Assembly: GCA_026984515.1 (NCBI GenBank)
Contig: JALSRZ010000116.1
Location: 1-45,147, forward strand
Direction: 5' to 3'
Origin: Thiohalobacter sp.
Lineage (GTDB): Bacteria; Pseudomonadota; Gammaproteobacteria; DSM-19610
Length of the DNA: 45,147 nucleotides
Shown: one piece after another, positions 1 to 45,147 of the stretch
How positions within the stretch are numbered: position 1 is the first letter of the stretch
Layout: the number at the start of each line of letters is the position of its first letter
Made by a program: the position numbers and the translations under genes
Notes under the pieces: generated by a model
Databases searched by the model: none
What the model saw: the letters and a program-made list of their open reading frames with translations, nothing else
What the model was told of the DNA's origin: nothing

Positions 1-179
1 CCGCATTTCTCACCGGGTTCCGTAGCGAGGCGGTGGCAGGTCGTGTGATCAGCGGCGTTCGCGACCGAGGGCCGCGCAGGCATAGTCGACACGATGTCGA
101 GCAGCCCGACCGAGTGAACGCCGCTTAACGCGCGGCATGACGCCGCCGCAGCAGGAAGTCGGTGAGAAATGCGGGCTAG
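1..179 (+). mobile_element. 184-bp MITE-like repeat, copy 1 (left end cut by window)
   Basis: This is a copy of the element seen whole at 27775-27958; the first five bases lie outside the window. Its right end is the inverted terminal repeat finishing in CTAG at 176-179. It differs from the copy at 27775 at only about two positions. It contains no coding capacity I can defend. The terminal CTAG overlaps the TAG stop of bfd, which reads leftward into the element. Confidence 0.85.
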
Positions 180-24640: not shown

Positions 24641-24824
24641 CTAGCCCGCATTTCTCACCGACTTCCTGCTGCGGCGGCGTCATGCCGCGCGCTAAGCGGC
24701 GTTCACTCGGTCGGGCTGCTCGACATAGTGTCGACTATGCCTGCGCGGCCCTCGGTCACGAACGCCGCTTATCACACGACCTGCCACCGCCTCGCTACGG
24801 AACCCGGTGAGAAATGCGGGCTAG
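24641..24824 (-). mobile_element. 184-bp MITE-like repeat, copy 2 (inverted)
   Basis: A complete copy in reverse orientation with CTAG at both ends (24641-24644 and 24821-24824) and 20-base terminal inverted repeats. It differs from the copy at 27775 at about two positions. The right CTAG supplies the TAG stop of the outer-membrane protein gene. The surrounding 24493-24820 stretch holds only this element and the terminator to its left. Confidence 0.9.
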
Positions 24825-25822
24825 AAAACCACCTGCCAGCTCGCATTGAGCATCCATTGCGTACTCATCTGCGGGCCGTCCAGGTTCTCGTAAACGGGCA
24901 CACCCCCTTCAATTGCCAGCCGGTTCCCACTAAAGACACCGGCGGGTGCGTAAAAGTTCACACCCGCCAGCAAATCGGCCCGGGTACCGCCCTGCAGGTC
25001 GGGATCTGCGGTGGGGACCACGCGTGGATTCAGCTTCGGGTCGCTGCCATCTATATTTCCCCAGGTCTGCCATTTCAGGCGCAGGGAAGTGCTCCAGGCC
25101 GGGGCGAAACGGTACGCACCCCAGCCGCCCAGCTCCAGCCGGTCACCCAGGGAGTAGTGATTGTCATTGTTCCCGCCCGTACGTACCGTGCCGAGCACCT
25201 GCCCACCCCAGGACCAGGCATGGTTCGCACCGACCCAGGTTACCCCGGGCAACAGATCCCAGGTTCCCGAGCCCAGCTGCATGGGATAGGGCAGCTGCGC
25301 ATTACGCATAGCCGGTGTATTACCTTTTTCATCAATGTCCCCCGTCGGGGCGCTGACACTGAAATTCAGCAACAACTGCCAGTCATCCCGGTTGTATACC
25401 TTGTATATACCACCCAGCTTTACATCACCGAGGCCGTCGCTGCTGGTACTGAAACGCGCCCCCATGCGCGTCCGGTGGTCCATTTCCTTGCGAATCCACG
25501 GCGCCATCGCCATCAGGGTGAAGTCATCGGTCACTGCGTACATGGTGCCAAACATGTGCATCTGCATATCCATGCTGGTGGGCGTCACCATGAAATCCTG
25601 CAACACCTCGGAATTGCCGAGGTCACTGGTACCATCGCGCATACCGTCCATGTGCATGGTCATGTAGGTGTAGGAAAACATCCAGCTGCCCTGGTGGTGC
25701 ACATGATCACCCATCACGCCGGCAGGAGACGTTGTCAGGTGCACGTGATGATGGTGATGGTCGGCAGCCAGGGCCGGACTGCCCGACATGGCCAGCAAAC
25801 AGGTCGTTATCAGTTTTTTCAC
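24821..25822 (-). CDS. His/Met-rich outer-membrane channel (MetA-pathway-of-phenol-degradation type)
   Basis: A 333-residue protein with a signal peptide (about 1-19, ending ALA). The mature N-terminus is strikingly metal-binding in look: DHHHHHVHL, then HVHH and many Met/His residues (MTMHMDGM, MDMQMHM). The remainder is a beta-barrel with alternating strands that ends in WQVVF, the C-terminal Phe expected of outer-membrane proteins. It resembles the transporter family PF13557. Copper binding or uptake is inferred from composition. It is divergent from regB across a region with two RegA-like boxes. The TAG stop is formed by the repeat element. Confidence 0.65.
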   Translation of the reverse strand: MKKLITTCLLAMSGSPALAADHHHHHVHLTTSPAGVMGDHVHHQGSWMFSYTYMTMHMDGMRDGTSDLGNSEVLQDFMVTPTSMDMQMHMFGTMYAVTDDFTLMAMAPWIRKEMDHRTRMGARFSTSSDGLGDVKLGGIYKVYNRDDWQLLLNFSVSAPTGDIDEKGNTPAMRNAQLPYPMQLGSGTWDLLPGVTWVGANHAWSWGGQVLGTVRTGGNNDNHYSLGDRLELGGWGAYRFAPAWSTSLRLKWQTWGNIDGSDPKLNPRVVPTADPDLQGGTRADLLAGVNFYAPAGVFSGNRLAIEGGVPVYENLDGPQMSTQWMLNASWQVVF

Positions 25823-27229: not shown

Positions 27230-27778
27230 ATGAGCACTGACACCGAAACAAAACCCTCCCTGCTGATCGTTGACGACGATGAAGTCTTCTGCGAAGTGCT
27301 CGCGGATGCATTAAGCCATCGAGACTACGCAGTAGCTACGGCAAGCACCATACAGGAAGCCCTGGAGAAGACGGCGCAACTGGAACCGGAATATGCCGTT
27401 ATCGACCTGCGTATCGGCCAGGAGTCGGGACTGGTGCTCGCCGGGAAATTGCACGCACTGGACGAAAATACCCGCATGGTCATCCTGACCGGTTACGCCA
27501 GTGTGGCTACGGCCGTTGAAGCCATCAAGCTGGGTGCCGTTCATTATCTTACCAAACCCGCCAACGCGGACGAGATACTGGCCGCGCTGCACAAGGACGA
27601 AGGGGATGCCAGCATACCCCTGTCCGACAACCCGCTGTCCGTCAGACGCCTGGAATGGGAACACCTGCAAAAGGTATTGAACGAATGCGACGGGAACGTA
27701 TCCGCTGCGGCAAGAACCCTGCGCATGCACCGGCGTACGCTGCAGCGCAAACTGGCCAAGCGACCGGTAAAAGACTAG
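27230..27778 (+). CDS. regA: Redox response regulator RegA/PrrA
   Basis: A 182-residue regulator with a receiver (acidic pair at D15-D17, phosphoacceptor D59 in YAVIDLRIG, conserved T in VILTGYAS and K in YLTKPA) and a Fis-type helix-turn-helix at the C-terminus (NVSAAARTLRMHRRTLQRKL). The end LAKRPVKD matches RegA/PrrA/ActR proteins, so the coding region appears intact. The stop TAG lies within the CTAG end of the repeat element. Confidence 0.92.
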   Translation: MSTDTETKPSLLIVDDDEVFCEVLADALSHRDYAVATASTIQEALEKTAQLEPEYAVIDLRIGQESGLVLAGKLHALDENTRMVILTGYASVATAVEAIKLGAVHYLTKPANADEILAALHKDEGDASIPLSDNPLSVRRLEWEHLQKVLNECDGNVSAAARTLRMHRRTLQRKLAKRPVKD

Positions 27779-27958
27779 CCCGCATTTCTCACCGGGTTCC
27801 GTAGCGAGGCGGTGGCAGGTCGTGTGATCAGCGGCGTTCGCGACCGAGGGCCGCGCAGGCATAGTCGACACTATGTCGAGCAGCCCGACCGAGTGAACGC
27901 CGCTTAGCGCGCGGCATGACGCCGCCGCAGCAGGAAGTCGGTGAGAAATGCGGGCTAG
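27775..27958 (+). mobile_element. 184-bp MITE-like repeat, copy 3 (reference copy)
   Basis: A complete element. The terminal inverted repeat CTAGCCCGCATTTCTCACCG occurs at both ends (27775-27794 and its complement ending 27958). A second, inner inverted repeat GCGGCGTTC/GAACGCCGC (27831-27839 and 27895-27903) surrounds a central near-palindrome CATAGTCGACACTATG. The RNA or single-stranded DNA could fold into a long nested hairpin. It lies between the convergent regA and motY genes, and its left CTAG forms the regA stop. Confidence 0.92.
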
Positions 27959-27991
27959 ACATCATAGTGTTAACAGGCCCTAAGGGAACCT

Positions 27992-43437: not shown

Positions 43438-43669
43438 TTCCTGACGCTGGCATGCCGGGCCCGCCTGCAAGGGGGTCCGGCATTAATTTCTGCCAACCTG
43501 TCAGTTAGTTACAAAAGTTACATACAGTTTCCTTCGGCTGGATTTTAAAATATAAACAACTACTTATAATTCCTGCCATCGTGCACAGACCCCCGATGTG
43601 GACTACAATCATGGGTATACCCCGGAACCCTGCCAGTTTGGCAGTATGAATCATCTTCCCGGAGGAGCC

Positions 43670-45025
43670 ATGAGCAGCAAAAAAATATCCCTTGAAGTGC
43701 AATCGCTGATTGACGCCCAGGACAATCCGTTTGTGCTGATCGATGAGCACTACAACATCGTCTCCGCCAATATCGCTTACAAGCAGGCCTACGGATTCAG
43801 CGAACAGGATATCGTTGAACACAAGTGCTACGAGGTATCACACCGTTCCGACGTACCCTGCCATATGAACGGTGAAGACTGCCCGCACAAACGCGTGTTC
43901 GAAACCCGCAAGCCACACCAGGTACTCCATATTCATTACGATACCCACGCCCGGCCGGAGCACGTGCGCATCAAGGGATCACCGATTTTCGGCCAGGACG
44001 GCACCATGTACCTTGGTGAAGCCGTATTTCCGCTGGCGCACACCGAAGACCTGGACTGCGAACACCAGCGCATGATCGGCAAATCCAAGGCTTTCCAGGG
44101 CTGTATCGAAGCCCTTACCCGCGCGGCGGAAACCGACGCGCCGGTGCTGGTGTGCGGGGAAAGCGGTGTAGGCAAGGACCTGGCCGCAGAATACATTCAC
44201 CGGCGTTCGGATCGCAGCGGTCGCAGCTTTACCATGGTGGATTGCAGCGCCATTTCCGAATCGGTATTTGAAAGTGAACTGTTCGGGCACGAACGCGGCG
44301 CGTTTACCGGTTGCATCGGCCGGCGCTACGGCCTGTTCGAGCAGGCCGACGGCGGCACCCTGTTTTTCAATGAAATCGGCGACCTGCCGCAATCGCTGCA
44401 GGGCCGTCTGCTCAACGCCATGGAAACCGGCCACTTCCGGCGTGTCGGCGGACGCGAATTGCTGAGCGCAGATGCCCGCATCATCTGCGCGACCAGCCAC
44501 AACCTGCGCAAACTGGTCGCCGCCAGCCGTTTCCGCGCCGACCTCTATTACCGCATCGCGGGCATCATCTGTGAAATCCCGGCCCTGCACCAGCGCATCA
44601 GTGATGTACCGGACCTCGCCAGGGCCCTGCTGCACCGCATGGGCGCCAAGGATGACCCCAGTTACCACCTGACCGACGACGCCATCGAGCTACTGTGCCG
44701 GTACGACTACCCCGGCAACGTGCGCGAACTGCGCAATATCCTGCAGCGCGCGGCTTCCCTCAGCACCAACGGCATCATCACCGCGCAGGAGATTCATATC
44801 GAGGAATCGACCGAAACCCGTGGCAACAGCCCGGCGATCCACCTGGTAGACGATAACGGCAACGAACCCTCCATCAAGGGACTGGAATCCCAGTACATTG
44901 CCGAACTGCTGGCGGAGCACCAGGGGAAACGCTCCACGGTGGCACAGATCCTCGGCATCAGCGAGCGCACCCTGTACCGCAAACTGAAACAGTACGGCCT
45001 GCAATCGATCGGCAAGGCCAGCTAG
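43670..45025 (+). CDS. fisR: FisR-like sigma-54-dependent sulfane-sulfur-responsive activator
   Basis: A 451-residue enhancer-binding protein with a PAS-like sensor (about 10-125), AAA+ domain (about 135-365) and Fis-type helix-turn-helix (about 420-445). The sensor has cysteines C53 (HKCYEVSH), C64 (VPCHMNG) and C71 (EDCPHK). These are the very positions I recall as essential for polysulfide sensing in FisR of Cupriavidus pinatubonensis, which supports both identity and the ATG at 43670 (after GGAGGA). Walker A is GESGVGK. Two oddities: GAFTGC instead of GAFTGA, and Asn234 in LFFNEIGDLP where Walker B has Asp. The stop TAG is in the repeat element. Confidence 0.85.
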   Translation: MSSKKISLEVQSLIDAQDNPFVLIDEHYNIVSANIAYKQAYGFSEQDIVEHKCYEVSHRSDVPCHMNGEDCPHKRVFETRKPHQVLHIHYDTHARPEHVRIKGSPIFGQDGTMYLGEAVFPLAHTEDLDCEHQRMIGKSKAFQGCIEALTRAAETDAPVLVCGESGVGKDLAAEYIHRRSDRSGRSFTMVDCSAISESVFESELFGHERGAFTGCIGRRYGLFEQADGGTLFFNEIGDLPQSLQGRLLNAMETGHFRRVGGRELLSADARIICATSHNLRKLVAASRFRADLYYRIAGIICEIPALHQRISDVPDLARALLHRMGAKDDPSYHLTDDAIELLCRYDYPGNVRELRNILQRAASLSTNGIITAQEIHIEESTETRGNSPAIHLVDDNGNEPSIKGLESQYIAELLAEHQGKRSTVAQILGISERTLYRKLKQYGLQSIGKAS

Positions 45026-45147
45026 CCCGCATTTCTCACCGGGTTCCGTAGCGAGGCGGTGGCAGGTCGTGTGATCAGCGGCGTTCGCGACCGAGGGCCG
45101 CGCAGGCATAGTCGACACTATGTCGAGCAGCCCGACCGAGTGAACGC
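45022..45147 (+). mobile_element. 184-bp MITE-like repeat, copy 4 (right end cut by window)
   Basis: The first 126 bases of the element appear identical to the copy at 27775. The left CTAG (45022-45025) forms the TAG stop of the fisR-like gene. The rest lies beyond the window. Confidence 0.88.

Follow-up and report, generated by a model that had tools for sequence, protein, structure and literature searches.

A 176-bp miniature transposon of Thiohalobacter probably mobilised in trans by an IS1380-family transposase

The repeat described here, of which four copies occur in a 45,147-nt stretch of Thiohalobacter sp. DNA (hereafter the window, meaning the whole stretch analysed, which is the entire contig C116 of the draft genome G000 of 3.37 Mb in 189 contigs), is very probably a MITE of 176 bp mobilised in trans by an IS1380-family transposase, and from sequence comparison the probability of this reading is placed at about 0.9. 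In the proposed mechanism, a non-autonomous miniature transposon would be moved by an IS1380 enzyme that recognises its 16-bp ends CCCGCATTTCTCACCG and inserts it at CTAG, or with looser specificity at YTAR, with duplication of four bases. We infer mobilisation in trans from the matching ends and from the coexistence of the IS and the MITE, and likewise the role of an IS1380 enzyme as the mover within the source genome itself. The initial annotation had already proposed a MITE, which is supported by target duplications, insertion at unrelated loci, unoccupied sites in sister species and the presence of a matching autonomous IS elsewhere.

Architecture and copies of the element

The element proper is 176 bp long with 16-bp terminal inverted repeats and is flanked by a 4-bp target duplication that is CTAG in most cases; being short, devoid of a transposase gene and bounded by terminal inverted repeats, it has the characteristics of a MITE. 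The complete reference copy with its duplications occupies positions 27775-27958 of the forward strand, on which all its parts are given. The left CTAG (27775-27778), whose TAG (27776-27778) serves as stop codon for a response regulator gene (27230-27778), is followed by the left terminal inverted repeat CCCGCATTTCTCACCG (27779-27794), the left subterminal motif CGTAGCGAG (27800-27808), the left arm of a nested inverted repeat (27830-27839), the apical near-palindrome CATAGTCGACACTATG forming the top of the predicted hairpin (27860-27875), the right arm of the nested repeat (27895-27904), the right subterminal motif CGCAGCAG (27926-27933), the right terminal inverted repeat (27939-27954) and the right CTAG (27955-27958). 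The two subterminal motifs face each other in the hairpin and contain internal-loop bases that are near-invariant, for the left motif across 21 aligned relatives. The nested repeat and the central near-palindrome are thus present as first described, and so are the CTAG-starting inverted repeats, with the correction that CTAG belongs to the target duplication, which reduces the terminal repeat from 20 to 16 bases and the element from 184 to 176 bp.

The four-copy repeat is real, although strictly only two copies are complete, since both contig ends fall within a copy. Besides the reference copy, the other complete one lies in reverse orientation at 24641-24824 (minus strand), where its CTAG provides the stop codon (24821-24823) of a minus-strand ORF at 24821-25822. 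The copy at 1-179 (plus strand) is truncated by the contig start, with its first 5 bases absent, and its right CTAG provides the stop codon (176-178) of a minus-strand BFD-like [2Fe-2S] ORF, while the copy at 45022-45147 (plus strand) is truncated by the contig end after its first 126 bases, with TAG at 45023-45025 serving as the stop codon of a sigma-54 activator gene (43598-45025). Relative to the reference copy these show 2 (24641-24824), 2 (1-179) and 0 (45022-45147) differences. As had been noted, no transposase is encoded in the window, as judged by a Pfam scan of its 33 genes; no Rfam match at the gathering threshold and no tRNA were found in it either.

Genome-wide, the repeat far exceeds chance expectation: the 16-base repeat gave 97 and 96 matches, the reversed pattern one each, and patterns of 28 bases from the left end and 30 bases from the right end gave 80 and 84 matches, with 0 for the controls. 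Retrieval of the stretches around the listed end matches yielded 670,213 bases in 103 pieces, containing 118 element matches, which are near full length in 51 cases and comprise the left end only in 32, the right end only in 33 and neither in 2. This count, which had been suggested as a check, gives 83 left and 84 right ends, and therefore about 80-85 copies. Agreement to within about two positions holds in the window, whereas the 41 full copies of the genome differ on average at 5.3 of 176 positions (maximum 14). The accompanying claim of recent activity is borne out only in part, since the copies are on average about 3% apart and the source 189-contig draft yielded no intact IS1380 transposase, only a 219-bp remnant of the profile at a contig end; an intact copy may have been lost or left unassembled. 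Gene conversion, invoked earlier as an alternative to spread, is not needed, because the copies have duplications of their own, in which the tetramer varies.

Target duplications and the IS1380 connection

Both flanks were available for 48 of the 51 near-full copies, and because the flanking tetramers are identical in 31 of these 48 (CTAG 24, TTAG 4, TTAA 1, CTAT 1, CTGG 1), the tetramer is taken as the target duplication and the element as 176 bp with 16-bp inverted repeats. The CTAG, TTAG and TTAA duplications agree with the YTAR-type target originally suggested. In the other 17 copies the two tetramers do not match, often by a single base; later decay may account for some of these cases, and five of the 17 adjoin the same repeated flank ending in TCAG.

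Occupancy of two window sites was compared across the 17 genomes of the genus, source genome included, using response-regulator orthologues of at least 71% identity for the first site. At 27778, the element is absent after the stop in all 12 sister response-regulator orthologues, and in G007, G012 and G004 this stop is an unoccupied CTAG. At 45025, it is absent at the stop in 8 of 8 sigma-54 activator orthologues, among which the G006 locus shows a related end some 100 bases further downstream, while the sequence downstream in G004 consists of Ns. Both sites checked are thus empty in sisters, and vertical conservation at fixed sites, which would have spoken against a mobile element, was not what was found. 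At the orthologous empty site in G007 (L273), another palindromic repeat (CGTCATTGCGAGGAACGAAGTGACGCGGCAATCTC...) fills the intergenic space after the response-regulator stop. One copy, 97% identical, is present in G017, another genus of the same family, and suggests transfer.

A search for complete ISs with matching ends identified members of the IS1380 family. Scanning the named genome contigs for the end GCCCGCATTTCTCACCG recovered at least 102 stretches, among which two end pairs are IS-sized, L081 (Lichenifustis, 1639 bp, CTAG duplication, one end with 2 mismatches) and L084 (KSB1-labelled, 1735 bp, TTAG duplication, transposase divided between two ORFs), and the proteins of both match Pfam PF13701 and NCBIfam IS1380. 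L164, on a Bradyrhizobium plasmid, is 1654 bp long with 14/14 end bases on both sides and a CTAG duplication. PF13701 matches were found in 58 of 369 same-class genomes, and 28 new PF13701 loci include L247 (G303, 1748 bp) and L248 (G287, 1738 bp), both with 14/14 end bases on both sides and CTAG duplications, as well as L246 (G359, 1761 bp), with the end variant CCCGGATTTCTC and unequal tetramers, and L259, with looser ends and CTAG. Hence all five IS-sized elements with these ends (L081, L084, L164, L247, L248) encode PF13701/NF033539-type IS1380 transposases, and they share with the MITE both the ends, CCCGCATTTCTCACC, and the length and sequence of the 4-bp CTAG/TTAG duplication. The MITE differs from the IS1380 family (NF033539) in carrying no transposase gene and in having an interior without evident resemblance to the ISs examined, and because evident resemblance to their ends stops at the 16-bp repeats, it did not arise from any of them by simple internal deletion.

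The end sequence in a genome tracks that of its IS. Canonical-end matches number 122+119 (241) in G287 and 64+55 (119) in G303, while G359, whose IS has CCCGGATTTCTC, has 41+33 (74), nearly all of the CCCGGATTTCTC (CCCGG) variant among the matches listed; genomes with IS1380 transposases lacking these ends have 0 (G011, G280, G169) or 0+1 (G374). G287 contains dozens of matches to the 176-bp element (40 of 259 candidates scored), and all 7 loci retrieved from it contain the element, with ends reading CACCA as in the resident IS, so that an intact IS1380 partner coexists with 176-bp relatives in this genome. The IS1380 of G011 was rejected as a parent, as it has other ends, CCCGCATATTGCACCA.

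The initial annotation had looked to an IS5-type parent, on the grounds that IS5 elements use YTAR-type targets. The four-base YTAR-like duplications around the copies fit such a parent, but an IS1380 transposase is present in each of the five IS-sized elements in which these ends were found, which makes descent from an IS5-family element highly improbable. As regards vehicles, neither the plasmid nor the phage collection contains a match to the source element; the 17-base end matches five viral-contig stretches, of which L162 and L163 have CTAG-flanked ends near contig ends, while no CTAG precedes the other three.

Several further repeats were observed beside the MITE or with related ends. 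Five copies (G000 C11, C13, C36, C48 and C80; L171:17993-18147 and others) adjoin one repeated flank, ...TTGACAGGTCAAAACATATCAG. A full IS1380 in G011 (L150), whose ends are different, is likewise preceded by the final 23 bases of this flank, which runs off contig ends and is possibly an insertion hotspot or a component of some larger mobile unit. The core of a short palindrome, TTAGGGCCTGTTAACACTATGCGAACAGGCCCTAA, has 7 matches in the 670 kb, four of which abut the MITE, and about half of it follows the copy ending at 27958 (window positions about 27959-27984); it is apparently an independent REP-like repeat, with YTAG ends that provide targets. In G359 (L302-L307), MITEs of two sizes, 240-241 and 346-348 bp, have CCCGGATTTCTC ends like the resident IS1380 L246, together with another interior and likewise strand-biased long hairpins. 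Very short elements of 34-38 bp (L050, L094, L106, L125, L145, L082) are barely more than the two ends joined to each other; their flanking tetramers vary, and all but one of the six come from a single Verrucomicrobia-labelled genome.

Placement of copies at stop codons

The retrieved 670 kb contain 255 CTAG sites, elements included, as compared with about 2451 expected from base composition, a depletion of about tenfold. With 612 genes called by a simple codon-usage caller, 38 full copies with both flanks are distributed as 21 at a stop codon, 13 intergenic and 4 inside a gene, and 125 unoccupied CTAG sites as 34, 47 and 44, respectively. Copies thus differ from unoccupied sites for stop versus rest (p = 0.003) and inside versus rest (p = 0.004), but since stop versus intergenic alone reaches only p = 0.066, the enrichment at stop codons is mainly an avoidance of gene interiors, which presumably results from purifying selection. 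Under an alternative criterion, stop codons coincide with 23 of 38 copies and with 46 of 128 unoccupied sites. Three of the four window copies exceed the coding threshold of 8 at their CTAG; the fourth (1-179) scores 7.7 against this threshold, and its ORF has a BFD [2Fe-2S] domain. No orientation bias relative to genes was seen: 33 of 73 left ends and 28 of 80 right ends have the stop.

Because CTAG is depleted and about a quarter of the measured free sites are TAG stops, insertion would often fall on a stop codon. The duplication would restore the stop, such that the reading frame is retained and a hairpin is gained downstream, with possible effects on the upstream genes. In a large survey, IS1380 copies are reported to be over-represented between co-oriented genes (PMC9208149), which is compatible with the present result.

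The conserved hairpin and its interpretation

The whole element is predicted to fold into a single hairpin of -127.2 kcal/mol, compared with -75.6 (sd 4.5) for shuffled sequences (z -11.5). Evolution of this fold was followed in an alignment of 21 elements of 175-179 bp from the source genome, relatives and labelled contigs, selected by length so that relatives of 210-247 bp with the same motifs were left out, and with a mean pairwise identity of 66% (minimum 47%). The contigs are labelled Gammaproteobacteria, Holophagae, Actinomycetota, Deltaproteobacteria, Vicinamibacteria and Thermoanaerobaculales, these labels being metagenome bins in which some short contigs may be misplaced. Among the 102 named stretches listed, 36 have the subterminal motifs of the 176-bp class and 66 do not; random 22-mers match the left motif in 43 and the right motif in 380 of 20,400 cases.

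On the structure of the source element, 87.4% of alignment cells pair, versus 74.1% in shuffles, and double changes are found at 37 of 66 pairs, in 158 cells versus 58.0 (sd 5.9). Sliding the partners yields 26-50 double-change cells, a comparison biased against the slid versions by the use of a structure derived from one of the aligned sequences. Conservation is 0.95 in the terminal repeats, 0.89 and 0.96 in the loops (columns 23-25/28-29 and 157-159/162), 0.67 in helix 3, 0.68 in helices 4-5 and 0.87 in helix 6. As judged from this alignment, the hairpin is maintained over the long term by compensatory changes around invariant internal-loop bases. The left-first strand folds better in 21/21 elements, by 19.7 kcal/mol on average and, with DNA parameters, by 10.2 again in 21/21, the rows being related and hence not 21 independent events. 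When mismatched units were swapped between strands in 60-80 randomisations for each of 16 elements, the observed asymmetry was reached by at most one randomisation in 11 elements, which include the MITEs with other interiors L302, L308, L120, L064 and L083, and by 2, 5, 6, 8 and 28 randomisations in the remaining five. Among pairs predicted on both strands and mostly of Watson-Crick type, GU exceeds AC only mildly (26 versus 16 cells).

Among the 41 full source copies, no selection on the fold was seen, with substitutions amounting to 0.694 per site where bases pair and 0.690 where they do not, and new alleles comprising 14 GU, 11 AC, 14 other and 1 double. Resident copies therefore decay as if the fold were irrelevant, and the kept fold would therefore stem from the moving lineage, from a templated mutational process or from inherited old asymmetry. 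Selection on the fold, if any, would act on the moving lineage and not on each resident copy. Tentatively, transposition or long-term survival of the moving lineage may require a structured single strand (RNA or ssDNA) in IS1380-borne MITEs, a proposal to which we give well under even odds. Under it, one strand's hairpin with asymmetric invariant loops would be kept by compensatory evolution across distant bacteria, which is possible though doubtful, and strand-biased full-length hairpins would recur in MITEs with the same ends and seemingly unrelated interiors, a part held just as cautiously.

Much the same modest likelihood attaches to a mechanical origin of the covariation in the same MITE, by which template switching corrects one palindrome arm from the other with no selection on the fold. 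Such correction is an established process in quasi-palindromes, and the nearly equal rates at paired and unpaired sites of recent copies, with similar numbers of new GU and AC alleles, accord with it. Template switching should, however, erase mismatches, yet the loops are conserved to the level of the terminal repeats and well above helices 3-5, and the better-folding strand is identical in all 21 relatives. Alternatively, the invariant loops might be subterminal sites bound by proteins, with a different site at each end; binding by the transposase there is disfavoured because the ends of the examined ISs lack these motifs. A domesticated repeat, retained by the host as a terminator or mRNA stabiliser acting on upstream genes, might be suspected from the position at stop codons together with a strong hairpin, but is unlikely given the unbiased orientation, the lack of pairing constraint in recent copies and the two sites found empty in sister species.

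Certain features of the element that is here attributed to IS1380-driven mobilisation recall known systems. ISEcp1 and IS1247 are annotated members of the IS1380 family, and ISEcp1 mobilises resistance genes. Correia elements (NEMIS/CREE) of Neisseria are likewise short palindromic MITEs with many copies near genes and a one-hairpin fold, known to be processed by RNase III, but they differ from the 176-bp element in ends, target (TA) and restricted host range. REP/REPIN sequences are also high-copy palindromic non-autonomous repeats, but they are 20-40 bp units tied to TnpA-REP, whereas the 176-bp MITE has 16-bp DDE-transposon ends and a target duplication. According to a 2024 review of prokaryotic MITEs, QMITE2 of Coxiella burnetii is of similar size and forms a whole-length hairpin of similar energy, but has direct repeats of 7-9 bp and terminal inverted repeats of 23-29 bp; the term IS1380 is absent from that review (PMC10969869). 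No description of an IS1380-linked MITE or of the 176-bp repeat was found in the open-access literature searched.

A large and apparently undescribed group of MITEs gains a probable parent in IS1380. A further consequence is that assemblies are broken by the element, as at both ends of the window contig. Insertion at a rare site that frequently coincides with a stop codon could allow a transposon to fill a genome with little damage, and the covarying hairpin would provide a natural test of selection for the fold of a single strand in the MITEs of DDE transposons.
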